Program-made: the position numbers and the translations under genes
Assembly: GCA_947179485.1 (NCBI GenBank)
Contig: OX359246.1
Coordinates: forward strand, 27,652,001 to 27,716,000
Source: Allacma fusca
Taxonomy: Eukaryota > Arthropoda > Collembola > Symphypleona > Sminthuridae
Direction: 5' to 3'
DNA length: 64,000 nt
Shown: one piece after another, positions 791 to 63,105 of the stretch
Layout of the letters: every line of letters starts with the position of its first letter
Numbering within the stretch: the first letter of the stretch is position 1
Notes under the pieces: model-generated
What the model was told of the DNA's origin: nothing
Database searches by the model: none
Seen by the model: the letters and a program-made list of their open reading frames with translations, nothing else

Positions 791-3694
791 ATGAATCCAG
801 TTTTACTCATTTTAAGTCACATCTTGATTCAAAAAGTTTTAATTAGCGGAAGTTATCCACTGTCCAGCTTTATGAGTACTTTCCCCACTCTCTTTCTACA
901 ACCAAATACAAATTTTGAGCTAGTGGTTCTAGGGAATTTGGGTGAAGCACCTGATAACTTTCTACCAGCTATTTCTAAAAATAACTTCACAATCGTCAAA
1001 ATTTTATCAAATGCAAGCTACCCTGTATCCGGCCCTATTTCAAAGCATGGCTTTACTTGTTCAGTTTTTCTCGTTCAAGTACAAAATGTGAACATTGTTC
1101 CAATACCAATATTGGACATGTCAAAGAATAATCTTCTTAGCGCTTACTTTGTTTTTATTGCGCTCATGACTCAATTGATGGGTAACTCATATCCCGTTGA
1201 AGATCAGCTGAGCATTCTTGCAAACTTTACTCGTCCGTTAAAGAACACAATTTTCTTGGTGACATCTCCGAATCGATTGCAGGCATTTATTCCTGAAAAT
1301 TTGCAGGAGAGACGTGTCTTTAAAATTTACGATTACTCGACTAGCCATGGCGTCAAACACGAAAACCTCAAGAATGCCTTCATTGGTGGATCAAAAGTGA
1401 ATATGCATAAAGAGCGCATTTTTGGTGTTATATGTTCACACTGTGCCTCAATTGTAATTCAAAGCCATTGGTCAGAACGTTTAACCAACTCAGCATTTTC
1501 ATTAATGCCACTGCAGAATTCAAATTAGCACAAGGAGAAGTTCACAGTTCCGCACGGACACAGCCCTTACTAGATGGAACAGGGACAATCGCTCTACCTT
1601 CAGCCCTGGGACACGGAGATTTATTCTTCCATGTGACTGACGTTGCCGTATTCCATAGCGGAGTTCAGAGCTAATCCCGCCGATATACTCCCGCTGGTAT
1701 TACTCCCGCGAACAGAAACCCGCTGTCAGTTTGACCGATGTATATAATCCCGCTCATGATAATCCCGACACTAATGAGATAATCCCGCCATACAATGAAA
1801 CGTAGAATTTAATAAATAGAAAATGATGTTGCTATAACAACAGTGAAGATACCACAGTTGAGCACACAAGATCCGAAGTAATAAACAAATAATAAGCAAA
1901 GATAAGAAAAAGAGGTCCTGTCGTTGCTATTTAAATGTCATTTTAACGTTAACTTTAGAAAAATTTTGTTTTGAGTTAGAATTCTGAATAATTAACAGTG
2001 TAGCAGTGTACATGCGCATGTCAGAATTCACAACATAGGTACAAATCAAAACGGCCAATCAACAGCACACAGCTTGTTGTCAAGTACATGGATAATATTA
2101 AATATTAGCAAACAATTATTGTTTATTGAATTTAATACAATAAAACCTGGGTCGGGAATATCGTCAGTGGGGTTATGGTTGGCGGTATTGCATACTTTTG
2201 AGATCGGGATTAAATCCTCGGGGTTGCTTCGGCGGAGTTATCACTGGCGGGATTGTCGAGGCGGGATTAGCTCCGGGCACGTCCATAGCTATACCTTTGT
2301 TACGGGTCATCCCAGGAAGGTTTCCATTACTTCATTGTTACAATTGGCTCAGCCCTTTAGTTCATCGGTTTGGGCTCTCACGCTGACGTTTGTTGGAGTC
2401 ATTTTTCTAGCCATAGAAATGTTATCATATTCCAAAAGAAGGAAAAGTTTTAAGAAAGTTACCATGAAGAGTAACAAACTTGTACAGACTGAGAACACAT
2501 TTTTGCACATATGGTGGACTGTAGTTTTGCTTCAGCCTATTCTGGACCAAGGAATGTCCGGAAAATGTGTTTCTGCTGCTGAGCAACATAGCCTAAGTCA
2601 AATACTCTTGGCAATGTGGCTCTTGCTTTTGATAGTTTTAGGCTGCGGTTACAAAACTGAACTACTGGAAATGGTTGTTTTGCCGAAGATTATTTACCCA
2701 CCCAAAACATTTCGAAGTCTGGCGAAGTCAAATTACAAAATTGGAGTCATATCTTACACTAGGCTTCTAGCCAATTTGGAACCTTTTAATAACAGCATTG
2801 GCAAGGCACTGGTACCTAAACTTTCGGAGTACGAGCTAGTAAAGCCAGATGTAAATAAATGAATTTTTTAATTAGTCATTGTCAATGAGCTAACTTTAAT
2901 TATGTATTTTTATATTGTTATTTTGTGGCCATATGTAGTGCTACCAATTGATTTTTGAGCACAATGCCGCTTGCGTTGGACCCAGTTTCGTTTTTTCGTT
3001 TCTTGGATCTATTTACATGACCAGCGCGAAAAAGCAGCTCCTTTTCATGGAATCTAAAGATACATTATTTACTGAAGTTATGACTGCGGGGATGAGCATT
3101 CAATACCCTTACCTTGTTGGTAAGTAATTTTGAATTAATATTTTATTTTGCAGTACTCTTCATCCCAATTATAATAAAACTATTACTTGTACGCACTGTA
3201 ATTAGATTGAAGCAATAATTGTTTATGAGATTAGCAACAACTTCATGCGAATTGTAAGAAGTACCTGCGGGTAGATGTATGTTTGTATGTATCAGAAATT
3301 TATAAGGAACAAGTTGTTTCAGGAAGCGCACAGCAATATAGTGACTTACAATTTAGTCATCTTTTGTATTTGACAATTTTCAGAACCATATAATTTTATC
3401 TGGTCCGGGTTGTATACTTCAGGAATATTCCAAATTTACTGGGAATCCCAAGTTTTAGATGTGAAATTGAAACAGGGTAAAGAATACGCTAGGAAACATT
3501 CGAATGATCCGAAATACAGCACTGGGGAAACGCACGACTTCTCGAACCAACGTATCATTTCTTTATCCCTTGAAATTATTATTTATGGCAGTATTTTAGC
3601 AGCAGCTATTTTTGGAGGCGAATTAATAATTTTTTTTTCTTGGCGGCCAAAGAGTATACTGAAATTTCTTTGGAATCGTAAGAACCATTTTTAA
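791..3694 (+). pseudogene. Class A ionotropic receptor, disrupted (frameshift plus transposon insertion)
   Basis: This is a close paralogue of the intact gene at 9877-12141. Exon 1 opens at ATG 791 with a hydrophobic leader and runs in frame to about 1450. There a net 16-nt deletion relative to the intact paralogue shifts the frame, so translation would stop at 1528. Coding similarity continues in another frame to about 1659 and is then split by a 621-bp insertion (1660-2280). It resumes at 2281 through TM1, pore region and TM3, up to the GAT before the splice donor at 2851. Exon 2 (2939-3119) and exon 3 (3384-3694) keep open frames, the acceptors and the donor GTAAGT. The exon 3 tail is longer than in the paralogue. 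With two independent lesions no full-length channel can be made. The well preserved downstream exons suggest recent loss. Confidence 0.9.
1660..2280. mobile_element. Non-autonomous TIR element inserted in a receptor exon
   Basis: The 621-bp block interrupts class A exon 1 and is absent from the intact paralogue. It is flanked by a perfect 8-bp direct repeat, tccatagc, at 1652-1659 and 2281-2288. The ends are inverted relatives: gagctaatcccgcc near the left end and its complement near the right, while the outermost 8 bases match poorly. The word aatcccgc, or its complement, recurs many times near both ends. An 8-bp target duplication fits the hAT or P superfamilies. No transposase is seen, so it is probably a MITE mobilised in trans. 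Confidence 0.8.
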
Positions 3695-5200
3695 AGCCTT
3701 ACAATGTCAATTTATAGTTGCGCAATTTCCCTAAAGGTATAACTGCAAAAACGTACACTTATTTAACCTAAATATGTTTTCTTTACATTTCCGAAAAGCT
3801 TTGATATTTACTACAATTTAAAACAAATAGAAATTGTATTGTTATTGATTAATTCACTCTTTCTTGCCCTTCCCCAGATGAACTAAGAGAACGGTGGATG
3901 ATGATCAATTTTATTATGTATATATATATGCATTTTATTTCAAACAGTGAAGGCATTGAATTAAATCATGTTCGAAGAAAGGTTTACCCGCTACTAAAGG
4001 TACGCCCGAGATTTTGACGCAGAGAAAATTATGCTGAATGTCTTTACTCAAGGTTAAAGAATTTGACGTGGGTATTCTCCCACCAGGTTGGAGATTTATA
4101 TGTAGTGGCTTTTACAGCGGATAATTTTCCCGGCTATATACAATTTTTGCTCATAGGGTTCTTTTAAATGTATACTTTCTGAGGCGGGTTCCCTTCAACC
4201 AATTTCAACCCAATTTTCCCTTTAAAAGGATCAAACCTACTTTTATAAAAAGTACAAAAAAATAAATCCAAGATATTGTAAGTAGCAAGAAACTAATTTC
4301 AAGTATCTTCATGGGTCACAAAATGCAATTTATTATCTACCAAAGAAACTATTTTTAGGTCAGTTTGTAAAACAAATTACATCAGTTACATAGTATTCGG
4401 ATGCGCTGCCCGCCATCCCAACCCAAGTGTAAAATAAGTCACTTTTTGAGAAGTTATTGCAAAATGTACTGTAGACACTACTTAGAACCACTTAATAAAT
4501 CAACACATTTCCGTGTGGCATGAAGTTACAATTCAAAAATATCAATTCAGCCGACTACGAAAATTCAATAATAAGGAATAATATATTTGTGCGCTGGTTG
4601 TAGATCCAAACTTCCTTCAGCGGTTTATGACCTCTTAGACTGCGTTCCACTTAGTGTATAAATTTTATGCAAGTATTGCGATGGGAGACCCATCATTAAA
4701 CCACCTTACAATTAGGCCCTGGTAGTCAGGCGACAGATCTTTACCCCGCGGCATTAAATTTACTTGATAATTACCGCAGACGTATTTTACAATTAAAACA
4801 ATAATTAAGAGATACTATACGCGTGGAAACAAAATAATGTACCTTTGAGGTGTATTTTGTGCAGACCGAACAATCTTTTGTCCAAAAAATTTGTCCGTCT
4901 AATCACTCTTTCTCCAAAAATAGGAGCTAATATTTCATTTAATTTCAACGTTTGGCTATTTGGTAGACGTAGAAAAGTGAGGACTTTCATTTAAAATTAT
5001 TTACCGTAGAGAAATATTTCAATGGTTGTTATGTTTGCACTGGGTAAGAAAGTGTGACATCTGCCGAACAATCTTTTGTCAGTCCACTGTATGTATTTCC
5101 ATTAAAAAGGAAACTCAGTCATTTGAGTGGAAGTTCAAGTTTCCCTTGCACCCGGAACTTCAGGCAGGGTAATGACCAATGACTGTAGAACCAGAGAAGG
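3695..5200. other. Intergenic, 3' flank of class A copy 1
   Basis: The first 450 bp resemble the 3' flank of the second class A gene (12142-12700), including a shared tgaaggcattgaattaaat. This again shows unit duplication. Beyond about 4200 I recognise nothing. Minus-strand frames at 4805-4990 and 5119-5301 are short and unsupported. Confidence 0.5.
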
Positions 5201-5254
5201 CATTCAAGTAGTCTGGAAAGCGAAAAGTATATACGACGAAAAATCGTCGCTACA

Positions 5255-5660
5255 TGATGATTTGAGGCTTCGCGTAGGGTGGCATCAGCTACCTCCGTCA
5301 AAGTATGATGAATTTTCAGGGTTTTTTAAAAATTGTTTTCGAAAAAACAATCCGGCCGATTTCAACCACATCGGCAATAACCATTAAGATTTAAATAAGC
5401 AATAATCCATAAAATTACACTGAAACCAATTCAGTAGTTTTAGAGATAGCTGTCATTGGACTTCGAAATTTCGGATTTGTTTCCGAAAAACCTACGGCGC
5501 CGATTTCAACCACATAGGGAATAAACATTACTAGAAACATAAGCGATACTCACAAAATAATTTCTTGAAATACATTCAATAATTTTGGAGTTAACTGTCG
5601 TTTGACTTGAAGTTTGAAATTTCAAAACAACTTCTTAACTGATTATTTTGAATGTTTCTC
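5255..5660. repeat. Interspersed repeat copy (same family as 50890-51875)
   Basis: Begins with gaggcttcgcgtagggtggc and contains degenerate repeats of a word like ccgatttcaaccacata followed by ttcagtagttttagagat. The same words in the same order occur twice in intron 2 of the class B gene at 48936. Only one end is clear here, so this copy is probably truncated. The open frame at 5127-5387 crosses it and is dismissed. Confidence 0.65.
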
Positions 5661-6903
5661 CGCTCACAAACCTTCAAACTTTTTTAACACTCCAACGAAG
5701 TTAGCGTAACAAATTTTGATCTGCACGTGTCGCATAAATTCACTCGAATTAGATTAAAATTCGTAAATTGATGAGCAAATTTCGTATAAAACATAGTATT
5801 TACATGTAATTTTAAACATGTTGCAACATGGCTTTTTCTTTCAACAATTTCGGCAATTTTAGGAGAGCAATACCGATAATAACGATAGTTAAAATATTGC
5901 AATACTATTAACTCCAGCAGGTTCTATTGTAAAATATCAGTATGTATTGATTTGTAATTCAAAACATAATTGAATAATAGATTTAAAAGATTAAATTTAT
6001 GGTGTATGTATATACCTAATTACTAAGACCGAGCCTGCGGTCTGGTGGTGTAGTAAATCTGTAAGGTTGCAGAAGAGTCGCCTTCGACTCTAGGTCACCC
6101 TAAAATAATTTCAGGTCCTTTCTATCTTTCCCTATACACTATCGATATGCAAATGAGGTCCGGAGTCATGTTGCGCATTCTTGGAAGAGTATCAGCAGAA
6201 GTAGTGGGTACCGTGCACTGATAATGATTCGTAAGATGAATTGGTGTATTTGTATATCGTCGGCTAAAATCTAAAAGGTACCATTTTCATTTGCGAACCC
6301 GTTTAAAAAGCATAGGTTGTGAATTGAAAATGGTACTTTTTCGAATTTAGCCGATATACTGCGACTGCTGATATCTCGAATAAGATTGTCCGTGGCAGGT
6401 CCCATGTCTCCTTCCTTGTCTGCATATCCTCCGTCTGTATCTGTAGCTTTACATTTCACTCTCTATCTCTAATTCGTACGTACGTGCGTACGTGTGTGTT
6501 GATATACATGCTTGCGAGACTGCGGGGATGCTGTGTGTGACACCGGGTATGTGCTAATATGTAGCGGACTGCACACGTAGCGGGGGCCTGGATCTCTACC
6601 TTGGGTTATTAGTCATATATGATGACGAATTTACATACAGGCCTGCGGTTGAGTAATAAAGTGTGGAATGAGCGGACGGCCCCACTTCGCAGTACGCATC
6701 TAATGGGCCAGAATCTAATGGCTCCAATTTGTAAGAAATTAACAGATAATAAATGAGGTAAAGAAAACCCTGTAAGGCCTTAGGGCAAATCGTTGCATAA
6801 GCCATATTTTTTATATAACTAATTACTAAATTTATTGTAGACGCATAATGAATTACATAAACAACCTTCCTATGTTGAGAATGGTTTACAACTATATAAA
6901 TCA
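5661..6903. other. Intergenic, upstream region of a lost class B gene
   Basis: About 5800-5960 is a diverged copy of 16960-17130. The stretch around 6840-6900 matches 17230-17280, both upstream of the intact class B gene at 17686. It therefore represents a class B 5' flank whose gene survives only as the scrap at 6904-7390. A hairpin element lies at 6259-6355. Otherwise I see no gene. Confidence 0.55.
6259..6355. mobile_element. Tiny hairpin MITE, copy 1
   Basis: About 31 bp at the left (starting gtcggctaaaatctaaaagg) is an imperfect inverted repeat of the right end, 6325-6355, leaving a loop of only about 35 bp. A second copy lies at about 20632-20718. The size is too small for coding, and the mobilising partner is unknown. 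Confidence 0.65.
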
Positions 6904-7390
6904 ATGGCTAACTCAAAAGCCGTAACCTGCAGCGACAAGGTCCCGAGCTTGGTGCAAACAGATATTTGCAATCTGAAAAGGTCAAAAGTCTCAATGTTAT
7001 GCCTTAATGCTTAATACAATTGTTAAAGTTCTTTACATAGTTTTCCTTTGAATGGAATCTACAAGTACAGTACAATTATGAGTGGCCAACGATCCTTTCA
7101 GCAGATTTGTTTTCAAATTTGGTTTCTTTCCGACTGTACTTGATGTCGTTGTTAGAGGAGAACTCACTGAAAATCTAAACTAACTAATTTAATTAATTAA
7201 GTTTAGCATATCTGCATCAACAACTAAAAATTCCATACATTTTACGTATGTACACAAAGAACGACAGCTCTAAGAGGAACTGCGAAATTTAAAACGTTCG
7301 ATCAGTTGCCCAGCATTTGTATTTAACGTAGATAAAAAAGAAAATGTGCAAAATCCAAATAATGGTTTTACAAGTACCGATAAATCAAAT
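6904..7390 (+). pseudogene. Class B ionotropic receptor, 5' fragment
   Basis: Aligns with the first 500 bp of exon 1 of the class B gene at 17686. It starts at the equivalent ATG (6904) and runs through the hydrophobic leader, the GGCCAACGATCC segment, and the part reading ttccatacattttacgtatg. There are in-frame stops and small indels throughout, including a run of taa motifs near 7180-7200. Homology fades at about 7390, with no TM or pore exons downstream before the next class A unit. It is a decayed, 3'-deleted duplicate. Confidence 0.8.
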
Positions 7391-8446
7391 TGGCTTTGTT
7401 CATATTTAACTCTAATATTTGTTTAATCTTTTATTATGCTGTTTACTTAACAATTTAAAATATGAAATTTTCTATTTCTTCAATACGAACCCATCATATT
7501 AAATTGAATATACTCACTCTATAGTAATTGCTCGATGTTAAAGTTGGTAGCACTAAATGACATTGTATAATGCAAAGGATAGAGGCGGATGTGTAAACAT
7601 ACTCCCAGGAACTAGAATATCACAAAATTTATAAGGCAGTATGGTGTGCTAGAGGGAACCTGAATGAATGCAAGTGTTTTGTGATAATTGTCTCTGATTA
7701 TGTAAATATATTTACTAAATAAATTTTGAAATTCTAACAGTAAATATTTTACTTTTAAATATTTGGGAGCTCTTGGCGTCGTAAAAAATATTGATTTATT
7801 GATGGTGCAAAACCTTAAAGAAGTGCAACGGTAACGATAAAATAACATTATTGCTAGTAATAATTCCTTTATATGTGTGAACTGACAATTTACAATCAAT
7901 CAAAGGAAATAATATATAACGTGCATTTTCATTTGGGTAATGTTATGCAAGTTGTTACAAACACTTCCACGCTACGCTTGCAATTTGTCGTAAATTGTTG
8001 ATAGAATACAGCAAAACTATTTACACCCGTTGTAACGTGTAAGTTTACAAAAATTCTTATACTAGCTTTTATTTGTTAATAATAATCATATCCAACAAAG
8101 CGTTTAAGCCGAATAGGTTGGCTAAGTGTATCCTTATTTACCATCAAACATGTTTCATAAGTTGCAAAGAGTTAAGTGATAAAAGCTGAAACAGTTGTAA
8201 AAGTTTCGATAATAATTCCCTGAATTATTAAAATCTGTGTACAAGACACATACAATTATATTTATTGAACTACTGGGTACTTAAACAAAATTGACGTAGT
8301 TTGGGCCAATTAGTGTTATCATTTGTTCAAAAACACGTAACTATTACAACACACCGATGGTTACTAAATGGATCAAGTAATACACAATTCTAGGATTTGA
8401 TGTTTTCTAATTTTCAAAATCTAAGAATGATATTTTTACAGAAAAG
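7391..8446. other. Intergenic, 5' flank of the second class A gene
   Basis: No gene is seen from 7391 to about 7780. From about 7790 to 8400 the sequence parallels 240-740, upstream of class A copy 1, with shared words such as gttggctaa and gcaaagagttaa. It is a candidate promoter or 5' UTR region, later separated from its gene by the TIR element at 8450-9850. Confidence 0.55.
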
Positions 8447-8449
8447 CTA

Positions 8450-9850: not shown

Positions 9851-9876
9851 CTGCATATACAGAAATAATTAGAATA

Positions 9877-12141
9877 ATGAGTCCAATGTTACTCATCTTA
9901 AGTCACATCTTGATTCAAGAAGTTTTAATTAGCGGAAGTTATCCGCTGTCCAACTTTTTGAGTACTTTCCCCTCTCTCTTTCTACAACCAAATATAAACT
10001 TTGAGCTAGTGATTCTAGGAAATTTGGGTGAAGCAACTGATAGATTTCTACCTTCTACTTCTAAAGATAACTTAACAATCGTCAAAATCTTATCAAATGC
10101 AAGCCACCTTGTATCCGGCCCTGTTTCAAAGCATGGCTTTACTTGCTCCGTTTTTCTCGTTCAAGTGCAAAATGTGAACCTTGTTCCAATACCAATATTG
10201 GACATGTCAAAGAATAATCTTCTGAACGCTTACTTTGTTTTTATTACACTCGTGACTCAATTGATGCTTAACTCATTTCCAGTTGAATATCAGCTCAGCA
10301 TTCTTGCAAACTTAACTCGTCCGTTAAAGAACACAATTTTCTTGGTGACATCACCGAATCGATTGCAGGCATTTATTCCTGAAAATTTGCAGGAGAGACT
10401 TGTCTTTAAAATTTACGATTACTCGAGCAGCCGTGGCGACATCGTCGAAAATCTTAATCTTAATGCCCTCATTAGTGGATCAAAAGTGAATATGCATAAA
10501 GAGTGGATTTTTGGTATTGTGTGTCCACGCTGTGTCCCGAAGGACCGTAATTCAAAGGAGGTGCCGACGCCATTGGTAAGAACGTTCTATCAACTCAGCA
10601 TTTTTATTAATGCCACAGCAGGATTCAAAATTCCACAAGGAGAAATGCACAGTTCCGCAAGGTCACAACCCTTACTAGATGGAACAGGGACAATCGCTTT
10701 ACCTTCAACACTTGGACACGGGGATTTATCCTTCCATGTGACTGACGCTGCCGTATTTCATAGCTATATCTTCGTTACGGGTCACCCCAGGAAGGTTTCC
10801 ATTACATCATTGTTACAATTGGCCCAGCCTTTTAGTACATCAGTTTGGGCTCTCTCACTGACATTTGTTGTAGGCATTTTTCTAGCCATAGAAATGATAT
10901 CATATTTCAAAAGAAGAAAAGCTTTTAAGAAAGATGCCATGAAGAGTAACCAACTTGAACGGACTGAGAACACATTTTTGCACATATGGTGGATTGTAGT
11001 TTTGCTTCAGCCAATCCTGGATCAAGCAATGTCCGGAAAATGTGTTTCTGCTGCTGAACAACATATCCTTAGTGAAATACTTCTGGCAATGTGGCTTTTG
11101 CTTTTGATCGTTCTAGGCTGCGGGTACAAAACACAGCTACTGGAAATGGTTGTTTTGCCGAAGATTATTTACCCACCCAAAACATTTCGAAGTTTGGCGA
11201 AGTCAAATTACAAAATCGGAGTCATAGCTTATGCTAGGCTTCTGGCCAATATGGAATCCTTCAATAACAGTATTAGCAAGGAACTGGTACCTAAACTTTC
11301 GGAGTACGAGCGACTAAAGCCAGATGTAAGTGAATGAATTATTTAATAAGTCATTGTCAATGAGCTAACTGCATATATGTATTTTGAGATTGTTATTTTT
11401 TGGCCATGTAGTGCTTTCAACTGATTTTTGAACACAATGCCGCTTGCGTTGGACCCAGTTTCGTTTTTTGGTTTCATGGATCTATTTACATGACCAGCGT
11501 GAAAAAGCAGCTGCTTTTCGTTGAATCAAAAGATACATTATTTACTGAACTTATGACTGCGGGGATGAGCATTCAATACCCTTACCTTGTTGGTAAGTCA
11601 TTTTGAATTACTATTTTATTTTGTAGTACTCTCCACCCCAATTATAATATAACTATTGCAGGTACGCACTGTAATTAAAATGAAGCAATAATTGTTTATG
11701 AGATTAGCAACTTTTGAAGGCGTATTGTAAGAAGTTCCAGTAGGTAGTTGTATGTATGTGTCAGAAATTAATAAGTAGTAACCTGCGTAAGGCAGCGTAC
11801 TGCACAAGTACATGGGAATACCGTACTATAGTTATGTACATAATGACAATTGAGTCATCTTTTGTATTTGACAATTTTCAGAGCCGTATAACTTTATTTG
11901 GTCCGGGCTGTATACTTCAGGAATATTCCAAATTTACTGGGAATCCCAAGTGTTAGATGTGAAATTGAAACAGGGTAAAGAATACGCTAGGAAACATTCG
12001 AATGATCCGAAATACAGCGCTGGGAAAACGAACGACATCTCGAACCAACGTATCATTTCCTTATCCCTCCAAATTATTATTTACGGCATTATATTAGCAG
12101 CAGCTGCTCTTGTAGGCGAATTTATAAAAAAAAATTCTTGA
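9877..12141 (+). CDS. Class A divergent ionotropic receptor, intact (three exons)
   Basis: Exons 9877-11325, 11412-11592 and 11882-12141 join in frame to give 629 residues. The introns use GT-AG: donors GTAAGT after GAT and after GTTG, acceptors TGTAG and TTTCAG. The ATG starts a hydrophobic leader (residues 1-20), likely a signal peptide. A CPxC motif, part of the ligand-binding S1 half, falls near residue 215. TM1 is about 321-343, a pore-loop-like segment (WWIVVLLQPILDQ) about 367-382, and TM3 (LLAMWLLLLIVLGCGYKT) about 397-418. TM3 is followed by the classic IR stretch YPPKTFRSLAKSNYKIG, the start of the S2 half. Exon 2 continues S2. Exon 3 ends S2 and supplies TM4 (about 601-623). Order and spacing match the ligand-gated channel domain of IRs. 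It is probably a sensory-neuron cation channel; the ligand is unknown. Confidence 0.88.
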
Positions 12142-24425: not shown

Positions 24426-24483
24426 GCTCGTATGGTTGATACATGTGTCCTGAAACCCAATTATTAATTTCTGGAAACGCCCT

Positions 24484-27484: not shown

Positions 27485-27558
27485 TTATTGAAATGGTATT
27501 TCAATGGGGCCGGGAAGAACGCATGTCGCCGATTATCCGGCTCGAAGGACCAAGAAAA

Positions 27559-48040: not shown

Positions 48041-48935
48041 GTTGCATGCCATCATGACAAACGTTATTTTTATCTTCTGTTACTAAGAACACACATATTT
48101 GAAATGCGATTGAATATCTATTGTCCTCTTAACAATGTTTCCCTCAGGCTTGCACGTTATTCCAAAGTATTAATCTTTTAAAACCTAACTAACTTTGTTT
48201 ACTTATGAATGCTCGCTTAGTGTTGTATCTGATCCGGTAAGAACAATTTTCATTCTGGTCCGGTTTGATCCTAAGGTTTGAACCATTTGGAATGATGAGC
48301 TTCCAGTATTTGGCAGGCCAGTATATCTGTTTCAAAATTTTGTCCCTATTTAGTCGGACCAATTTGAAATTCGTCGAGCTTTTGCGCGGCTCATTCTTTA
48401 GAAAAGCCTATCCAAGTGTATAAAAGCGTCAAAAAACGCGTTTATTTTAGCTGTACTAAAACAACAGCAGAAATTAGCAAGGAACCAAAGGTGATTATAA
48501 AGACATTAAAAAAAATTGCTAATACTGTTTGGCGCAAAGGTTGAACCAGACTAGGACTTGTACCCTTTAGATCTGTTCCAAATATCTGTCGGACTGTCTT
48601 TGGTCCACAATTGGGGAACGACGAAACGGAACTGTCCTTGGATCAGACCAGATCAGTAATTTTAGAACAGACCAGGACATTTCCAGCACTAACTCGTCGG
48701 TGTGCTACAATTGTCTTGAATTCCAATTATGATTTGTGGAAACACAATTTTGAGTGTACCAAAAGCATATACTTAAATGCACAACCTTATTTGCATTTAT
48801 TTATGAAAACTCTATGCAACGACTTACAATAATAATAATGAGTAACCTTACAGCTACAGTAGCCAGAGCTCAAAAGCTAGCAGTTCTGAAGTTGTGAGCT
48901 CGTTGCAAACAGCTTTTTCTAATGTAATAAGGCAA
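48041..48935. promoter_or_regulatory. Class B upstream region with embedded hAT-like element
   Basis: 48041-48227 is the conserved class B upstream word set (acatatttgaaatgcgattg, ttccaaagtattaatc). A 464-bp element fills 48228-48691. From 48692 the sequence resumes with the immediate 5' flank (cagttctgaagttgtgagct) shared with the genes at 28140 and 60531. Confidence 0.5.
48228..48691. mobile_element. hAT-like element rich in ggtccgg, copy upstream of the second intact class B gene
   Basis: Left end tagtgttgtatctgatccgg; right end gaccaggacatttccagcacta. This is the same family and the same host position as 23461-24425 and 58866-60304. Non-coding: the frame 48611-48832 leaves the element and is spurious. 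Confidence 0.65.
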
Positions 48936-51900: not shown

Positions 51901-52340
51901 TCCCAGACATTCATGTGTATGTGCATGCACTGGATATAAACAGTTGACATGTTCTGTAAATAAATTTATATATTTGGGCGCAATATAGTGTGGTTCGCAC
52001 AAAGTTATGCACTCTGTAATATTTCGTTGTGATTGCAGCTCCTTTCAACTTTGTCAGAAACAGGATGGAATCTGGGGGCATATACAGTAGCTTCTGGCAT
52101 TCGAAACTAATGCAAGAACGCTTGGAACAGGGGAAGCAGTATGCCCGAGAACATGTTAGTACCCATAAGTATTATGAGGGTAAGAAACATTGGGCGGTCT
52201 CCAGCCAACAGATCATTGCTTTGTCATATTTGCTGCTTTTGTATGGACTAGTCTGCTCCCTGTGTGTTTATTGTTTAGAATTGATTCATGTTCATGGAAG
52301 GTCAATTTGCCGTGTAATTTATGGACGATTTTGCACATGA
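48936..52340 (+). CDS. Class B divergent ionotropic receptor, intact (three exons)
   Basis: Exons 48936-50432, 50511-50691 and 52039-52340 join in frame to 659 residues. I start at ATG 48936 (MATMLYINTIKILCIILL); a longer open frame exists only with a GTG at 48894, which is unlikely in a eukaryote. The hydrophobic leader is followed by DCTCIDITFRGEL, shared by B genes. S1 carries CPVCDPTSKYSKVP. TM1 is PWVWGTIIICVVCVFVTL, the pore region ends QPFVDQAVP, and TM3 contains FLLLIVLGAGYKTKLLEM, followed by PPSTFHELVESNYKIG. Exon 2 keeps CFQIIFEENMACM. TM4 lies in exon 3 (ALSYLLLLYGLVCSLCVYCL). Intron 2 is long (1.35 kb) because of two repeat insertions. Donor 2 is the weak GTACAA. Confidence 0.92.
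50890..51875. repeat. Two head-to-tail copies of a TIR repeat in a receptor intron
   Basis: Copy 1 spans about 50898-51293 and copy 2 about 51317-51873. Each starts with gaggcttcgcg(t/a)agggtggcgtc and ends with ctgac(a/g)ccacc, so the ends are inverted (agggtggcgtcag). Inside are repeated gggccgatttcaacc and ttcagtagttttagagat words and a conserved cgtgcgga(a/g)ggacacacgg near the right end. Another member lies at 5255-5660. No coding region. Confidence 0.7.
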
Positions 52341-53547
52341 AAATCAAAGATTTACAATGTTTGAGATACTCCTTTGGCTTCATTATTGGTAAATATTTAC
52401 CATGTACTATTTACTACTTACTAAGAACAGGTTCGGCTGTTCTCTACACCCTCTGCTGAAATGGAATAGCTGTATGATGATTTAATGTGGGGACGTAAGT
52501 ACACACAATTAAAACAGACCTAACATTTTGGAATGCAATTATCTCCCGATCTATAACACTTACAACAATAAATAATGACGGCTATTAATAAATAGTGTAG
52601 ATACTATTGAAATAACTTTTCAACAAAATCCACCAAATTAAAGGTTGCACCAAAAGGGAGGCCAAAAATTAACGAGACATTTTACAAATCTTTTTTGCAA
52701 TTTTACCAAATTACAATGATTAATGTAAGTATTCATTGCATAGTCATTTCAGATTATCATTATACACTATAGCGCCAGGCATTCTCTGGAACCCGTTATA
52801 TTTCATATGCTTCGGTCAAGGAGGATAAAGACACTGCAGAATGGTAATTGTTTTGTTCTGATAATTTTCGTGCAAACCACATGTTTTGGCATCAAATAAT
52901 GTATTAGCATTTGTGACGTGTATTCACATGGAGACAAAACCTCCGTACAAAATGTATGCAATCCAAAAATAAAATACTTGTACAATAAATTATGCCTTAA
53001 GTAGAAAGGCGAAAGGGCATTTCTAGAAGACAGCATACAAAAAATATTAACATTTGAGGTGATAAAATTGACATGAAGGACAAACACTTGAAATAATTTA
53101 AGAGTTGCTACATTATCCCCTAAGGCTGTGCTAAAAATGTAATTCCAACAATGGAAAACACATAAATACAACAGGAATATGATTATAGAAATACGTTTCC
53201 CTTTTAATATACATAGGGTGTCTAACTCAATTACAGAACATAAATCGTTTCCAAAAGAATTTATTAATGTGCAAGGGGCAAGGACATACAGTGTTGCGCG
53301 TAACGGACTTTTCATTATGTAAGATTAAATCTCAGACCAAGTACAATAATTATTACAGAAATACAAGTCCACGTGTCTTCACTTGAATGGCAACAGAACT
53401 TAAATAACCCACTATATCAATTTAATTCCTTGTACCATACAGTAGGTCTGCAATGACTAAAAGTTTAAATATTTTAATTTAATACTTAAAGTTTTCCACC
53501 TGTACTGATTTTTATAGTTAAGTCTGTGAATTTCAGATATAGTAGAT
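52341..53547. repeat. 3' flank of class B and B-to-C spacer block, copy 3
   Basis: 52341-52780 matches the 3' flank of the class B gene at 60531 (63106-63500). 52800-53540 is the spacer block seen also at 32830, 42400 and 63520. The 170-codon minus-strand frame 52803-53315 is the longest found in any copy, but other copies do not keep the frame. Confidence 0.55.
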
Positions 53548-53555: not shown

Positions 53556-56117
53556 CAGAGCTGCGCTCAAGTTCAAGTAGACCATGAGTATTTCAAGTCA
53601 TGGTCAAGTTCGGGTCATGGTCAAGTAAAATATAATGGATACTTGAACATTCAAGGCATGGTCAAGTTATTTATTCTACTTGACCCTGAGATTTGAAATC
53701 AAGTAGTTATCATGGTCAAGACAAAAAATTCTACTTGAGAGTCAAGTCATGTTCATGGTCAAGTAAAAATGTATAAATCCTTGACCATGAACCATGAGTA
53801 TTTCAAGTACTTATTCAAGTAACGTAACGTTACGCATATCGAAGTTGTGGCACTATATATTTCAATAGGTTTTCTTTCATAATGTTATCGTTACTCCGAG
53901 ACTCCGTATCCATACATGTTCTTCTAAACTACATATTTTTGGGTTACGATTCAATATCTCTAGATATTGGAAAGCCACAGCTGTAATAGTGAACGAAAGA
54001 AAACGAATATAAAAACTTTGGACAGGCCTGTCATTCAAGTTCAAGTAAAACTTGACAAGTTCGGGTCAAGTTCAAGTTCAAGTCAAGTTCGGGTTACAAG
54101 TTAATTTGAACTTGACACTGAAATCTCAAGTTCGGGTCAACATGAAATTTGAACTTGATTTTAAGGCTCGAATCAAGTTCATGGTCAGGTCTTCATTATA
54201 GACTTGACATCAATGCCATGATCAAGTTCGGATCACATAACCCCAAAACCATGAACATGAACTTGACTTTTTATGGTCAAGTTCTTATACTCATATAATA
54301 CGCTGTAGATAATCGTTCTTATGCAGATATCCTTGCTGAAGCTGTAAACGCTAATTTAAATCACAGCGGTTTCGCGTGCAAATGCTAGACCGGTATTTCC
54401 GTGTTTTCAACGAGCAACGTGCTCCGGGCTCAAATATTACAAGCTAAATCCTGTTGTATTTTCTTCTTCACAACATCTTTTCAATTTTAACTTGATTTAA
54501 ATTTTTGAATAATCATATTTTAAAAACAACTGGAAAATGAGCACATCTGAAAAGTCTCAACAGTGCGAAGAAGCTGCTGATCCTGGAAGTCTAACTGCAT
54601 CAAGTAGCCGGAAAAAATGACCTAAGGTCCACAAGCATTTCACATTTTGCGATTCTACAAAAAAAAATACAGCTGCAAACACTGCTCGTAAGTGTATTCA
54701 TATATATATATATATACCTGTTTCAGTTGTCCTGGCACAGACCTACTAACTCCTAAAAGAATGTTAGAAGACATCATTTGTGTTTGTCTGTGCTTGAAGG
54801 GATGGTTGAAATTTAAATCTCAAACCAATTTTGATGAAATCCATGCATCATTCAAAAAATTCAACGGGAAATTTAGTATTTTTATATTCTCCTATTATAA
54901 GTTTTATCAATCATTACTTCTAAATTTTGATAGTCAATTTTAAAAAATAAATGGAAATTAAATCTCAGGTAATTTGTTAGCCTTTCTAATTATAAGTATA
55001 CATACAACACTATAACTAGAAATTCAAGTCCATGGTCAAGTTCATGGTCAAGTTCATGGTCAAGTTCATGGTCAAGTTCATGGTCAAGTTCATGGTCAAG
55101 TTCATGGTCAAGTTCATGGTCAAGTTCATGGTCAAGTTCATGGTCAAGTTCATGGTCAAGTTCATGGTCAAGTTCATGGTCAAGTTCGCCGAAATTAACT
55201 TGATTATGTGAACTTGATTACTCCGGTTCGTACCTACTTTTAAAAAATCAAGTTCAAGTTCGGATCTTAATTATGGTGATATAATCAAGTTCGGGTCAAG
55301 TTCAAGTGCGAATCATTAGTTGAACCGAACTTGAGGCCAGGCCTGACTTTGGAGCAGCACCTATGAAAGCAACAGTGTTCAATGTTCGATTGTTGTATAA
55401 AATAAACGCGTTGTTAATCAATCAAGTTACTTAAATCCAAGTACTCTTTTCATTCTAAACAATTTAACATCTGTAAAACGTTAAACACTACTACATAAGC
55501 CAGTTTGTTTCATTAACAGGGTGGACGCTGAACTGTAGATATTTTCAGTGAAGCACAACCCAAACTTGAATGTTAGCGTAAGTAATTATTATTAACAGGA
55601 AAATTCAATGGGAAATGATTTACTTACTTCTAAAAGACTGTTTACCTTACAATTAGCAGAGACTATTCGTAGTTTCTCGTGATTGAAGGTTGCCTAAAAC
55701 TAAAACACAAGACATTAAAATATCCAACTGAAGCAGCAACTCAAAATTTACTTGGAGAAGCTTGACAATTGTGAATAATATTGTTATTTGCTAAGTTTTA
55801 ACCATAAATGGTGTACTTGGTGTATTTTAAGTGTGAATACTATTTTTCTATTTCTATTTTTTTAAAAACTTGACAGTTCAAGTCAAGTTCAAGTTCGGGT
55901 CATGGTCAAGTCATGGTCAAGTCAAGAGTTGTCCCTGCTATACTTGACCAGGTTCAAGTTACGCGGAAAGTACTTGAATACTTGACCCTGAATTTTCAAG
56001 TAATTGTCTGACCATGAACCGTCAAGTTCAAGACCGTCTGAAAAACCTACTTGACTGTCAGGGTCAAGTCAAGTTCAGGGTCAAGTTTGGGATTTACTTG
56101 ACTTGAGCGCAGCTCTG
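53556..56117 (+). mobile_element. 2.6 kb hAT-derived element with iterated caagttc ends, minisatellite and BED-finger remnant
   Basis: Perfect 17-bp TIRs cagagctgcgctcaagt at both ends, with a perfect 8-bp duplication atatatag at 53548-53555 and 56118-56125. Long subterminal zones are made of gttcaagttcgggtcaag-type words in both orientations. Around 54538-54690 a coding remnant starts MSTSEKSQQCEEAADPG. After a stop it continues with a KVHKHFTF segment and, across a slip in an A-run, a YSCKHC-like pair of cysteines before a GTAAGT. This fits a BED zinc finger exon at the start of a hAT transposase. The rest of the transposase is gone. It inserted beside a class C remnant. Confidence 0.88.
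55041..55184. repeat. 12-bp tandem minisatellite, 12 perfect units
   Basis: Twelve identical copies of ttcatggtcaag in a row, plus a partial unit before. The unit is a variant of the iterated word of the surrounding element, so the array probably expanded from it by slippage or unequal exchange. There are no spacers, so it is not a CRISPR-like array. Confidence 0.97.
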
Positions 56118-56219
56118 ATATATAGTATAGTTTATTCATGGTCGATTTATGGCCTCAGCCCCAACAACCCAGTATTATACATTCATATTTACATACACTA
56201 TGGTTACAAAACTTCTTTG

Positions 56220-56330
56220 GAATTTCAGATATGCAAACCGAGGTAGCACAAAGAATACCATTAAAATGCGTAACCTCACTACTGCAAGTGTGGTACGATG
56301 TGGTTACGACTAAACCATGTTTTCCTTGAG
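56220..56330 (+). pseudogene. Class C ionotropic receptor, leader scrap
   Basis: The stretch caccattaaaatgcgtaacc-like (around 56255-56275) and the following catcgtgg-like bases align with the first 60-80 bp of the class C gene at 43129 and its immediate 5' flank (ccgaggtagcacaa against ccgaagtagcacaa). It keeps an ATG and LTTA-like residues but ends in stops by 56330. This is all that remains of a third class C copy, right after the hAT element. Confidence 0.65.
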
Positions 56331-57010
56331 CTTAAAATAGAATAGGGAGCAGTAATTATTATGGCCTGAATATTGTTGTAAATAAATTAAGCGTCGTTTT
56401 ACTTATTCGAATAATAAATTAAAATGGAAAATATGGCTACGAGGCTATTTACCCAGCATTAGCTCGAATAGCCAGAGATTGTTTAGCATTTTCTGGAACT
56501 GTGGAGTACCGATAGAGCGAGCATTTTTCTATTGCACAGATTTTCTGACGCTTATCTAAATGCATATCTATGAGTAGAGATACGGTCAGGAAATGTTTCT
56601 GTCTCAAAGCTTGGCTGAAATTAAAATGGAGAGTTGGAATTTAAAAAAGCGTTAATCGCAATAGCAATGATATTTTGCAAAACAAATTGTTAATCGATTA
56701 ATTTCTTGGCATTATTGAACGTTTAGATATTATTACAAATAATTACGATACTACATTTGTGTTATTGCACTGAACTTAGCCGTTCACATTGTAGACTGGT
56801 ATATGTTACCTTTTCTACACTTATGTATTCACTTTTATAATTATTGATAATTCCAGTACATACTCACTAATTTTAATTATATTATATTATTAATTAATAT
56901 TTTCTACCACATGGATGGGTACCAAAAGTTTGTATCTGATAGGCACCTGTACCTGAACCTGTACCCAAATACCTGGGTAAAACCTGTATCCATGCCGGGT
57001 ACTTCTACAG
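56331..57010 (+). mobile_element. hAT transposase C-terminal remnant, second copy
   Basis: 56440-56650 parallels 21897-22090. It reads YPALARIARDCLAF and then, after indels, an ERAF-like piece, again the hAT dimerisation signature. The right end near 56915-57005 has ggtacc and caggtac-type words and tccatgccgggtac, like the 21478 family. The left end is not found, so this is a truncated relic. Confidence 0.65.
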
Positions 57011-58369
57011 AGTAAGCACATGCTAAAACTATTGAGCGTATCTCAACTTTAGACAATGCAAATCGACGAAGTACTCTGCGTATATGCATGTGTATTTTTG
57101 AAAATAAATTTTTACAATGTTAACTATGTAAAGGTACAGGTCGCTTTTGGTCCGTTGGTAAATGGAATTGCAAAAAAACATAACAAAATTACATATTTTC
57201 ACCATGGAAATGTCAAATTCATCGAGAGCGTTCGTTTAAAATTACAATGATTTATTGGGGCGAAAATCGTACGGGGTAGGGTTAGGTAATTATCTGTATC
57301 TACATATAAATACAAGTATTAAAGAGAAAACTAAAATTAGCAGTGCTCATCAACTTTGGATTTTATTTCCCTGTGCATTCGCACGTAAATATATTTGACG
57401 CATATATCGTTTCAAATAAATAGCCTAGTTAAAAATCTTTATTTCCTTAATACATTGTTCTATATCTGCGGGGTAATTCTTTGCAGGAGCAAATACAATT
57501 GAGCATTTTTCTCCTGCCGAACACTTTTAATTGGCCAACAGGTCTAACATCTCGCCGATGAAAAATATTAGAGATATTTAGAAAACAAGTGGAACCAGCG
57601 CGAGATATTTATACCAATTACTGCAGGTCAATGAACCACTAACCATGTTTCGCAAATTTTAACTATTCACTCCGTGCCCAAACAAATTATTACAAACAAG
57701 GTATTCAATAAGAATATATATAGCGTGTAGATTATTTTGCCTCTTCAACGATGATACGCTAAACTTGGTGAATATTCTTATTGTACTGCATTATGGTGAT
57801 TACAAGGACAAAGTATGGCTGTTGGAGTAACTTCAGTAGCTGCTAAAATTTGATAGCAAATTTGGTTTTAAATTGTTCCCAAATAAATTTCACTAATCTG
57901 TAATAGGATCCATTTTCGCAAACATAATTACTTGAAATATGTATTCATGATTAGAGCATTTAACTATTACTAAAAATAGGATTTCGGATTTAAATCGATC
58001 TAGACTGTCATGCTTGCTAGTCATTAGTGTCGATGCCTTCGACAACCTTCGAATGTTGAGGTTAGTTTAATTTCTTGCACTGCAGATTGAACTGTTTACG
58101 TTGAGAAACTGCCAAGATGCGAACATGACAAATATTACTTTTATCTTTTGTTACTAATTGTAAGAACTTATTTCAAATACGGTTGAGCATTGGTCTGTTA
58201 ACTAACCGCGTCACCCTTAGATATTTTTTCAAAGTATTAATTTGAGAACAGCCTGATTAATGTGGTTTTCTTACGAATACATGCAAGTCCGTTACACGCA
58301 GAGTGCAACAAAAACTCTGAATTTATTAGCACTTACAATTATTAGAACTTCTGTAACAATATTAATACA
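57011..58369. other. Recurrent intergenic segments and class B upstream region
   Basis: 57011-57680 matches 36468-37120. 57760-57960 matches 22740-22880 and 39950-40080. 58040-58330 is a class B upstream copy, leading into the B scrap at 58370. No gene is seen. Confidence 0.5.
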
Positions 58370-58540
58370 ATGGTTAATTCAGCAACTATATGGCTGGCAG
58401 TAAAAAGACTCGGAATTCGGTGCAAACAGGTTTTTGTTATCTGAACTGGCAAAATGTTAGAATGTTAAACATTATTATAATTTATTAGTGTTCTAAATTT
58501 TCCTACCATGAATTCTATAAGCACAATTTAAATTTATTTA
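58370..58540 (+). pseudogene. Class B ionotropic receptor, leader scrap
   Basis: Aligns to the first 170 bp of the gene at 17686: ATG-aatggttaattcagc, then cggaattcggtgcaaacagg and gttctaaattttcc. The leader frame is broken. Homology stops just after the leader, and about 30 bp later a fresh class B upstream copy (58570-58865) begins, belonging to the next intact gene. It is the 5' stub of a deleted tandem copy. Confidence 0.75.
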
Positions 58541-58865
58541 AACTGTTATACCTGCTGACATTTAAAGTGCATCGATGCATAATGAACTGCATTGGCAGCC
58601 TTCGTTTGTTGACATCAGTTTCATGTCAGTGAAATATACACTGCAATATTGGAACATTTACATTAGAAAAACAGCTGTCGCATGCCAACATGACAAACAT
58701 AATTTTATCTTTTGTTACTAAGAACATGCATACATATTTGAAATGCGATTGAATATCTATTGTAGTATTAACTACCTTTTCCGTCATGCTTGCACGTTAC
58801 TCCAAAGTATTACAGTATAATCTGTTAAAAGCCTAACTAACTTTGTTTACTTATGAATGCTCGCT

Positions 58866-60304
58866 TCGTGCTGGGGCTGTTCCGGTCAAGACAAATTTAA
58901 TTCTGGTAAGGTCTGATCCAAAGGTTTGAACAATTTGGAATGATAAGTTTCCAGTTTTTACTGGACCAGTGTAGCCGTTTCAAAATTTTAGGCCAGACCA
59001 TTAGAACCGTTCCTGTACCTATTTGGTCAGAAAAATTTAAAATTCGTTGGCCTTTTGCGCGGCATATGCCGTATAGAGCTATGCAGTATTTTCAAATACA
59101 GTATTTTAAAATACGTATTTTCAGACCACAAAGTATTTTGTATTTTGTATTTCAAAGTTGGTAAGCAGTAAGCAAGTATTTTGTACTTAGTATTTTGAGA
59201 GCCAGGAAGTACAAAAGTATTTGGTATTTACTTACTCTCAATGAAATATGAAATGCAATTCAAATAAAGTATTTTGCTCAAAATACTTTTCGCTGGTATT
59301 ATTTCTGATTTTGAAACTGTATGTAGCTTATACGATGCGCAATGTCTGTGAAAATTCCATTTTACACATTGGAATAACATACGTTGGAATGAATCCCTTG
59401 TCTACATCAAAAATGTTCAGATTCTCGATACTGTACATCGTCGTTGAAGACTCGAAATGGTCTACGTGCGCATGGTTTTTACAGCACAGACCATTTTGCC
59501 TCTCCAACAACGATATTTAGGATACGCCGAAGACGAACACCTACTTGATTTAATTTTCAGTTACTAGCCCCTGTTTATAATAATTATTCCGAAAATACAT
59601 TTATTTACTAATAAATAAAATTTCATATTAATCTGTTACTTCATTAACAGTCAAAACGACTTAAAATATAATTATAATGGACTGACCTATTCGGCAACCG
59701 TTGAACAATTTGTTACTACACATGTCTTATATGCAGTCTTTGAAGTGACTGTTTTAAAATGTTCGTTCTAGAAATCGAAAATAGTGAGGATTAGGTGGGT
59801 ATTTTAAGAAAAGTATTGTATTTAAAATACAGTATTTTGTATTCGAGTATTTTAAATTTTCTACCAAGTATTGTATTTTTATTTGTATTTTAGCAATGTA
59901 ACCTGAGGTATTTTACTTTGTATTTTCCATATTTTAATTCAGGTATTTTATTTTGTATTTTGGCATCGAAGACCAAGTATTTTGCATAGCTCTGCTTATT
60001 CTTTAGAAAAGCCTACCCTGTATAAAAACGTCGAAAAAACGCGTTTGTTTTAGCTGTACTAATACAACAGCAGAAATTAGCAAGGAATAAAAGGTGAGAG
60101 ATTTTTTTGAAATAATTCATCACTAATAATGTTTGACTCAAAGTTTGAAACAGACTAGGACCTGTACCATTTAGATCTGTTTCAAACCATTCGCCGGACT
60201 ATGTCTTTGGTCCACAATTGGGGAACACGCGAGACGGAATGAACCTGTCCTTGGACCATACCAGTTCAGTAATTTTGGAACAGACCAGAACATTTCCAGC
60301 ACTA
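58866..60304. mobile_element. hAT-like element rich in ggtccgg, copy upstream of the third intact class B gene
   Basis: Left end tcgtgctggggctgttccgg; right end agaccagaacatttccagca followed by cta. Same host position as the elements at 23461 and 48228. It is lengthened by the nested element at 59075-59994: the sequence ggccttttgcgcggc continues after that insertion with ttattctttagaaaagcc, as in the undisturbed copy at 48370-48410. Confidence 0.65.
59075..59994. mobile_element. Nested TIR element filled with agtattttaaaatac words
   Basis: The ends agagctatgc (59075-59084) and gcatagctct (59984-59993) are perfect inverted repeats, continuing as tattttc/tatttt iterations. Dozens of agtattttgtattt words fill both arms. 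It lies inside the older hAT-like element and is absent from that element's copy at 48228. I see no clear target duplication. The frames at 59248-59520 are not convincing. Confidence 0.7.
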
Positions 60305-60530
60305 GCTCGTCAGTATTTTACAATTGTCCTGAAATCCAATTATTAACCAAAAGCATATACTTAGATGTACAACCGTGTTTGCAATTATGAAAACTCTATG
60401 TAACAACTTACAATAATTATTATAACCCTACAACTGTAATAGCCAGAGCTCAAATGCAAAATCCAGCAGTTCTGAAGTTGTGAGCTTGTTGCAAACAACC
60501 TTTTCTGATGTAATAGGGCAAATTGCTACA

Positions 60531-63105
60531 ATGCTAAACATTAATAGAATTAAAACTCTTTGCATAATTTTACTAACCCTGGAATCTACAAGTACAAGTA
60601 CAGCACCCTTACGAGTGGCGAAAGATCATTTTACAAGTTTTGTCAGTTTTTTTAAAACTTCGATCCTCTCTGATTGTACTTACATAGATATCACTTTCAG
60701 AGGAGGCTTGACTGAAAGCTTAGACGAACAAAGTATAGCAGCTCTGCACCAAAACCATCAAATTCCATACATTTTACGTATGTATACGAACAACATCAGC
60801 TACTCAGAGGAACTACAAAATTTTAAACGTTTGATCCGCTGCCTTCTATTTGTGTTTCTCGTTGATAAGGAACAAAATGTGCAAATTCCAAATAACGGTT
60901 TTACAAGTACTGATATGCTGAGTGCATATTTTATATTCATTTTCTCCGACCATCAAGCATCACCCACAAAGATTCCTGAGGTAATAGAACAATTGAATTT
61001 AACCAGAATCTTTTTAAATCGTATACTTCTGATTTCATCACCATCAAAAACTTCAGCCTATATTTTACAGCCAACTACTACCACAAATGTGTCTGTACAA
61101 ATCATTTACGCCGATAGGAACACATTTCAATCATTCCATAACGAGCTGGTTACTTTGAAATCGACGAAGAAGTTCAATTTGGCGAAAGAACCAGTCATAG
61201 CTGTAACGTGCCCCACATGTGATCCTACAGTCGGAAATTCAAAGGTACCAGCGTCTTTAGTCGTAGTATTTATTGAGTTTACTCTCTTTATTAATGCAAC
61301 TCCAAAATATTTACCAATGTCAGGAGGCAGAAATGCGGAGAACTGGAAGCGACGTTTGGGAGATGGCACAGCTATGTTAGGCTTGCCTATGTTTCAGGGG
61401 AGTAGCCAATCATCATACCATACGACGGATTCTAACGAGTTTGTGGGTGTGATATTTGTAACAGCACTGCGAAAATCAGTGGACTTTAATTCTTTGGAAC
61501 AACTGTACCAACCTTTCAGGCCTTGGGTGTGGGGAACGGTATTAATTTGCGTGGTATGTGTTGTTGTGACACTGGAGGGGATTTCCCATTATCAAAAGCA
61601 GTTTGGGACTTTAAAACTGCAAAATACTTCAACCAGAAATGATGCTTACCATAGTTTCTTAAGTCTGTCGGTCCATTTATTAACATTTCCTTCTTTATTG
61701 CAACCCGTCGTGGATCAGGCAGTTCCAAATGATATTTACGTGGCTTCAAAGCAACATTTATCGGGTCAATTTTTGATCTCAATATGGTTCCTCCTGCTAA
61801 TAGTGTTGGGTGCGGGTTACAAAACAAAACTCCTTGAAATGGTTGTGCTCCCTTACTATATAATTCCGCCGTCAACATTCCACGAGTTGGTAGAATCAAA
61901 TTACAAAATTGGAGCATTATCAAATCCTTTACTAATATCAGGTTTACAAGCAGCGAATCATGGCATTGCTAAGATTATCCGCCAAAGGTACCATGAGTAT
62001 GATCGATTGAAACCAGATGTAAGAAAACTCTATGATTTGATTTGATTTATTTAGATTTAATTGTAAAGTTATACATCGAATTAAATCAATGATTTCCAAT
62101 AACGGACAATATTTAAAAACTAGGGGTAAATTACAAAATTTAAAAACAACTATAAACAGGACATGGTCAATTCGCTATAAAAATGTACATTATCTAGGAA
62201 TTACATTAGGCTAGTAAAAATTGTTAGGATAGGTAAATATAAAGTACACGTCTACATTTGATTCATATATTGTAGTGTTTCCAGGTCATTTTTGAAGAAA
62301 ATGCAGCATGTATGGGGCACAGTTTTCCAATTGACTTTGGTGGAACAAAATACATGACGGATGTGAATAAACAATTCCTAGCACAGAAATCAAAAGACTC
62401 CCTGTTTGATAACATGATGACAGTTGGTATAAGCAAGCTATACCCTCATCTGATCGGTACACATGAATTAAATAATTAAGGCCTAAATGATTTCAGAAGT
62501 TTGCACAATTGGAGTTGATAACCACAATTGCACTCTCTTGAATATGTTTCGCATGTTTAGAACAATATAGCCACGTTTACAAAATGTAGGGCCACACGAC
62601 TAATTGAGAATGGTGTATATGGAGGCATGTTTCTATTGAAAAAATCGTGTAGTATTGCCTTCTATGTTCCCAGATATGCCTGTGTATGTGCTTGTTTTGG
62701 AAATAAAGTTGGCATGTTCTGAACATGAAGTTATTTATTTGGGCGCAATAGTGTGGTTAAAACAAAGTTATGCATTCTGTAATATTTCTTGCATTCATTG
62801 CAGCTCCTTTCAACTTTGTCATAAACGGAATGGAATCTGGGGGTATATATAATAACTTCTGGGGCCCGAAAGTGATGGAGGAACGGATGGAAGAAGGCAA
62901 GCAGTACGCCCGAAAACATGTTAGTACTCATAAATATTATGAGGGTAAGAAACATTGGACTGTCTCCGACCAACAGATCATAGCTTTGTCATATTTGCTG
63001 CTGTTGTATGGACTAGGTTGCTCCCTATGTGTTTATTGCATAGAGTTAATTCATGTTCATGGAAGGTCAATTTTCCTTGTAATTTGTGGACGATTTTGCA
63101 CATGA
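60531..63105 (+). CDS. Class B divergent ionotropic receptor, intact (three exons)
   Basis: Exons 60531-62018, 62276-62456 and 62804-63105 join in frame to 656 residues. ATG 60531 begins the leader MLNINRIKTLCIILL; the open frame extends upstream only through a GTG. S1 carries CPTCDPTVGNSKVP and NATPKYLPMSGG. TM1 is PWVWGTVLICVVCVVVTL, the pore region ends QPVVDQAVP (F to V relative to the other B copies), and TM3 contains FLLLIVLGAGYKTKLLEM, followed by PPSTFHELVESNYKIG. Exon 2 reads CFQVIFEENAACM through YPHLI. Exon 3 begins APFNFVINGMESGG and contains TM4. It is the closest relative of the gene at 48936, so these two are the latest duplicates. Intron 2 lacks the repeat pair seen in that gene. 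Confidence 0.92.

Follow-up and report, generated by a model that had tools for sequence, protein, structure and literature searches.

Receptor genes at the locus

The stretch of DNA analysed here (the window) comprises 64 kb of contig OX359246.1 of the collembolan Allacma fusca (C8:27,652,001-27,716,000; without N, G+C ~36%), from an assembly whose 91 contigs total 392.7 Mb, and is enclosed by a ~1 Mb supercluster of ionotropic receptor (IR) genes on C8. Translated searches of the window identified IR-like receptor genes of three classes (A, B and C), each with three exons and in + orientation, in a tandem array that very probably grew by duplication of blocks including their flanks and shrank by insertion, frameshift and deletion. 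The locus was read over 134 kb by adding 30 kb to the left of the window and 40 kb to the right, and coordinates right of the window are given on the window scale (>64000). All genes, gene remnants and non-coding segments placed within the window below are on the + strand.

The gene layout is the same in all classes: a long first coding exon (termed exon 2, following the numbering of an earlier note on this sequence), a 60-residue exon and a last exon carrying the final membrane segment. Intron positions are identical in A, B and C, with GT-AG boundaries in phase 0 after the long exon and then phase 1. Five gene models are complete (start, GT-AG introns and stop; 629-659 amino acids, aa), matching the one A, three B and one C that the earlier note had listed as intact: A2 (9877-11325, 11412-11592, 11882-12141; 629 aa), B17 (17773-19269, 19349-19529, 20252-20553; 659 aa), C43 (43129-44568, 44731-44911, 45024-45310; 635 aa), B48 (48945-50432, 50511-50691, 52039-52340; 656 aa) and B60 (60531-62018, 62276-62456, 62804-63105; 656 aa). 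Protein identity to B48 is 81% for B60 and 74% for B17, compared with ~33-39% between classes, and the self-comparison aligned B48 and B60 at 83.65% DNA identity over 2104 bp, far beyond chance. Intron 2 of B48 contains a 152-bp tandem repeat (50870-51812) that is missing from B60 and has ~71-77% similar copies at 5239-5716. In an exon-2 tree of 58 proteins (from 62 frames, four of which were dropped for want of a profile match), the three classes form separate clades with support of 100/100 each, and the closest kin on C8 lie at 28.05-28.08 Mb for class C and at 29.47 Mb for class A.

The iGluR (ionotropic glutamate receptor) channel domain PF00060 matches four of the five intact proteins (best E value 1.6e-4), every bit score printed being below the curated cut-off, and in A2 exon 2 it is outscored by the unrelated STE3 family (E 0.0055 vs 0.016). 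Matches in PDB are all to iGluRs (28/28) and span M1-M3, but are weak (E 0.18-0.9). Hydropathy peaks fall where M1, M3 and M4 belong, with S2 between M3 and M4, in all five intact proteins, among other peaks. An AlphaFold2 model of exon 2 alone (5 rows) had a mean pLDDT (predicted local distance difference test) of 38.2 and was set aside. An exon-by-exon search of the genome gave at least 137 matches to PF00060 among the best 150 of 511 candidates, and a scan of viral contigs with B48 gave no match. We take the A, B and C genes as divergent IRs on this weak but consistent match, and family membership would point to a chemosensory, perhaps gustatory, function.

Broken copies

Six broken copies lie in the window, the one A, three B and two C counted in the earlier note. 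A1 (791-3691) differs from A2 by a 624-bp insertion and a net loss of 16 nt near 1444-1465; the inserted element (1660-2283) ends in inverted repeats and has duplicated a 6-bp target, CATAGC. B7, which together with a remnant of the B-upstream region (Bup) occupies 6812-7420, is a fragment with stops that represents only the 5' 0.4 kb of the gene, whereas B28 (28121-31460) has lost its start codon and is frameshifted by a 7-nt gap. The third, b58 (57933-58524, together with a type-II Bup), consists of the B leader and ~20 codons and is fused with the following Bup at 58524. Of class C, C33 (33544-34195) is the 5' half of a gene with stops and a frameshift, and c56 (56163-56443) is a scrap in which the gene start is joined to the end of exon 3 and intron, with short and weak matches (E 5e-8 and 6e-7 in one search, 0.004 and 0.0002 in another). 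The possibility that the copies are haplotypes duplicated in assembly was rejected because gene copies are only ~69-88% identical in the self-comparison.

One further B deletion had been proposed previously, which proves too few: two Bup copies are without B, at 37.7 and 41.3 kb, and a third loss may have occurred at 23.1-24.6 kb, where the Bup at 23.1 kb is followed by a B-leader-like piece (24232-24558) beside a BEL/Pao fragment, the whole lying upstream of B28 (24232-27793). The BEL/Pao pol frame is open (24440-27484, 1014 aa) and sits between two B-leader-like pieces, with no pair of long terminal repeats seen nearby.

Non-coding segments and extent of the array

Bup occurs eight times in the window (profile matches starting at 6830, 17135, 23091, 37712, 41265, 48021, 57948 and 58475, all at E 8.6e-9 or lower), in agreement with the at least seven copies noted earlier; the copy at 6830 is only 58 bp long, that at 37712 is weak, and two extra matches (E 0.0016 and 0.015) were left uncounted. 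The array was divided at Bup into units (U), the copy at 6812 belonging to U1. The other copies are those of U2 (17112-17520, an empty site for the shared insertion described below), U3 (23081-23618, the last ~135 bp being a remnant of that insertion), U4 (37690-37990, weak and with no B exon after it), U5 (41253-41794, without a B gene, its deletion being presumed), U6 (48015-48430), U7 (the type-II copy before b58) and U8 (58525-59096, whose profile match begins at 58475 within the b58 scrap). A segment following the U4 Bup (38072-38309) resembles intron 2 of B17.

The B-to-C spacer is present four times (32837-33495, 42411-43107, 52813-53523 and 63563-64000, the last reaching the window end), and a whole-genome search returned just these four matches, as the earlier count had it. 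The remaining intergenic segments, termed alpha, beta, gamma, delta and eps, lie in U2 (21115-23111: alpha 21115-21479, beta 21806-22335, eps 22690-22922, gamma 22950-23111), in U4 (39546-41190: alpha 39546-39894, eps 39882-40084, gamma 41026-41190), at 36461-37204 (delta copy 1) and at 57001-57969 (delta copy 2, 57001-57751, with eps, 57743-57969). The 5' flank of A1 (252-747) is repeated upstream of A2 at 8018-8435, with a piece at 7786-7957, and its 3' flank (3663-4261) has a second copy at 12161-12777.

Bup, spacer, alpha, beta and delta were each searched against the genome as separate queries. Alpha has two window matches and one short match on C10, in addition to a weaker third copy in the array, and delta has two matches, both in the window, among the best 40 of 672 candidates. 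Seven of 26 Bup matches are longer than 200 bp, and all seven lie in the array or beside a B gene copy on contig C1. Beta proved to be a dispersed, genome-wide repeat and was rejected as a collinear flank.

Position 63105, the end given in the earlier note, is the end of B60 only, and the array continues rightward to ~77 kb. This continuation holds alpha (64421), eps (66144), a Bup with a B scrap (U9, 66350-67010), a Bup with B68, an open B gene of 673 aa (68630-71446), and a further Bup with a broken B (71728-77232); a B remnant of exons 3 and 4 lies at 97.3-98.5 kb. The left 30 kb contains four more distant IR gene places. Used as a genome-wide query, exon 2 of B48 found eight B loci with identities of at least 65% (10 of 87 rows). 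One of them, on contig C1 (C1:58540001-58550000), is an open, intron-containing B gene preceded by eps and Bup, which means that a block of DNA has moved.

Block duplication

Self-alignment and profile searches revealed large direct repeats in the window, nearly all on one strand, and the self-comparison proposed in the earlier note bore out its expectation of collinear repeated flanks. The order of 30 segments in 12 units contains no contradiction, and none of 20,000 free shuffles or 20,000 within-unit shuffles achieved this; the unit boundaries in this test were set by Bup from the same data. Beta, a 51-bp delta match at 66102, four weak gamma matches, the B remnant at 97-98.5 kb and an eps at 100564 were left out of the test. 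A cyclic order of alpha, beta and delta was considered but vanished when the weak Bup at 37.7 kb was taken into account.

Units U6 and U8 are 81-86% identical across six non-coding segments from Bup to spacer, forming one ~5 kb block. Bup, B, spacer and C are collinear in U3 and U6, while A is confined to the two leftmost units, U1 and U2, where A+B was duplicated once and five consecutive segments are collinear. Block duplication is well supported over the copying of single genes. The amplified block is very probably Bup-B-downstream-spacer-C-alpha/delta-eps-gamma, with A plus B copied a single time; the copying step would be unequal (non-allelic) recombination between units, and copies were lost by insertion, frameshift and deletion.

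A shared insertion site and deletion junction

Probing from Bup into the B leader gives a continuous match in U2, U7, U9 and U11 (empty site), whereas in U3, U5, U6, U8, U10 and the contig C1 copy the Bup side ends within one base of one point (filled site). In C1 and U10 the leader resumes beyond the insert with 8-9 bases of overlap, the C1 insert being ~376 bp, and the far end of the insert has weak inverted matches in C1, U10 and U6 (E 0.03-0.05). The insertion is transposon-like. The B leader was not found at U5. The filled Bup copies form a clade with support of 99.6/99 in a ten-copy tree, 99.4/78 with all thirteen copies, and 90.5/89 with the insert removed.

The junctions of U7 with U8 (58524) and of U9 with U10 (67010) fuse the same point at the B coding start to the same point of the next Bup, and both fusions sit within 1.3 kb of 74.5% identity. 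A single deletion preceded the copying of the block, which carried the dead scrap along.

Gene and flank phylogenies

For six units (U2, U3, U6, U8, U10 and C1), trees of Bup, of exon 2 and of exons 3+4 each contain ((U6,U8),U10), and under the approximately unbiased (AU) test every one of these trees is compatible with every data set (lowest p 0.087). Mantel correlations of the six-unit distances are 0.58 (21/720), 0.78 (2/720) and 0.83 (1/720). The first Bup trees contained part of the insert and were redone with the insert cut out, U6+U8 then receiving 97.9/98. The comparison of gene and flank trees, akin to that of gene and spacer trees recommended in the earlier note, gives compatible histories for six units but a strong conflict with U11, whose Bup groups with U7 and U9 and whose B gene groups with B60, so that U11 is read as the joint of two blocks. 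The insertion site of U11 is empty, consistent with a Bup of the other type.

Alternative explanations

Several observations weigh against the account given so far. When U11 is added with its nearest Bup, Bup and exon 2 reject each other's tree (AU 0.0006 and ~0) and the correlation is gone (Mantel r 0.14, 1685/5040), and the six-unit set drops U11 by a decision taken after this conflict was seen. Even among the six units, U3 and C1 are placed differently between trees, one of nine values of the bootstrap proportion by resampling of estimated log-likelihoods (bp-RELL) is low enough to exclude a tree (0.037, for exons 3+4 tested on the exon-2 topology), and without the insert the join of U6+U8 with U10 in the Bup tree falls to 28.1/45. 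The leader match in U6 begins ~55 bases earlier, an overlap longer than a simple target duplication. Beta, as noted, is dispersed, gamma has weak matches elsewhere (gamma and eps had no genome search of their own), and the remaining 19 of the 26 genome matches to Bup are short and fall within its last ~140 bp. No unit in the 134-kb locus holds A, B and C together, and the assignment to IRs is built on profile matches below threshold.

The beta and Bup-tail matches are what would be expected had the genes been duplicated singly, the repeated flanks being dispersed repeats or chance. We give this very little credence: matches to the spacer and the Bup core are confined to the array and the vicinity of the C1 copy, alpha has just one short match elsewhere, the U6/U8 identity is level across gene and flanks, and the insertion and the junction are shared. 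For the U6/U8 and U7-U8/U9-U10 pairs these results refute single-gene copying. The earlier note had proposed an ordered A-B-spacer-C block; block copying stands, but the triple composition does not. An ancestral triple duplicated whole, with A later lost from all but two units, would account for A preceding Bup-B both times it occurs, for the five collinear segments of U1 and U2, and for the A, B and C clades all falling within one 28-row lineage. The data disfavour it, however, and we consider it improbable, as the extended locus has no A-flank match outside U1 and U2, other units have no class-A exon though B and C scraps survive there, U2, the sole unit with intact A and B, is without spacer and C, and the nearest A relatives, at C8:29.47 Mb, have no class-B match listed there. 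Gene conversion, acting besides duplication, has a small chance of explaining part of the similarity between copies. The introns of A1 and A2 differ at 54/345 sites against 274/929 in their flanks (p=2.7e-7), the pattern that conversion of the gene body subsequent to an older duplication would leave, and the discordant grouping of the U11 Bup and B gene also counts in favour of conversion. The A1/A2 difference suggests that the two genes were homogenised relative to their flanks by later conversion, but it could be constraint on the introns, and an error in the flank alignment could also yield the result; moreover, conversion creates no new units, collinear flanks or shared junctions.

It is improbable that the unit of amplification and selection was the upstream module as much as the receptor, such that the U5 Bup, now upstream of intact C43, could place that gene under B's regulation. 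Copies of Bup are more numerous than complete B genes, Bup adjoins B on C1 too, and dead scraps have been copied in living blocks, as this would have it; the absence of the B leader at U5 speaks against such lending.

Selection and turnover

The ratio of non-synonymous to synonymous substitution rates (dN/dS) is 0.28-0.35 in the six pairs among B17, B28, B48 and B60, and in a neutral simulation with 8-15% random substitutions only 6 of 4500 genes remained stop-free. Because of this ratio and the rarity of stop-free genes in the simulation, the intact B genes are likely in use. B28 probably died late, since it has zero stops in the 548 codons read past the frameshift and a dN/dS of 0.31-0.35 against the three intact B genes. 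Between A1 and A2, dN/dS ranges from 0.13 to 0.64 in five pieces. Five intact and six broken copies stand side by side in the window, constraint between intact copies having been measured for B only. Birth-and-death by tandem block duplication is well supported here as an ordinary process that is unusually well recorded. The unusually complete snapshot of turnover described in the earlier note survives in this sense, and is larger than was stated, taking in the array to ~77 kb, the B remnant at 97-98.5 kb and the contig C1 gene.

Comparison with known systems

The arrays of divergent IRs in insects, as treated in passages of Croset et al. 2010 (PMC2924276), are similar in being tandem, in having members translocated to other chromosome arms, in containing pseudogenes and in their birth-and-death, and non-allelic homologous recombination was proposed there. 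The arrays described in those passages consist of monophyletic groups, whereas three classes are interleaved at the A. fusca locus, and the divergent insect IRs are mostly single-exon with 5'-biased introns, whereas the genes of the locus have two introns in the 3' part. Portions of a report on Campodea augens (PMC6938034) describe a huge expansion to 2,431 IRs with many pseudogenes and fragments, propose segmental duplications, and note IR lineages with one or two gained introns. Our locus resembles that expansion in these respects; those portions resolve no block, whereas blocks, a shared junction and an insertion marker are mapped here. In primate MHC (major histocompatibility complex) class I, according to the relevant part of PMC12674619, blocks of live genes and pseudogene fragments were duplicated together and left a repeating pattern; the mixed live and dead blocks are alike, while gene family and organisms differ. 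A literature search recovered no description that we recognised as this locus, and we do not claim its absence from print.

The locus is a clear and unusually legible case of a well-known process, and no new kind of system. Receptor arrays are usually counted gene by gene, whereas here the block history can be read from non-coding markers. The filled or empty insertion site and the shared deletion joint are independent of gene trees and reveal which copies arose jointly. They also reveal that a scrap may already be dead when it is inherited, and pseudogene counts can therefore overstate the number of independent deaths. The process itself is already known, and the locus can serve as a template for tests of receptor-cluster growth.

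Other sequence features

An Rfam scan of the window gave no match, nor did six other frames match Pfam at E 0.1. A 550-bp repeat occurs in three copies 88-90% identical (67265-67820, 80964-81502 and 99468-100046), one of them inside a Bup. The segment at 56440-57003 belongs to a dispersed repeat present tens of times genome-wide, the two parts of the segment matching opposite strands, and a 12-bp tandem repeat (55024-55187; 13.7 copies, 99%) lies between the spacer and c56.

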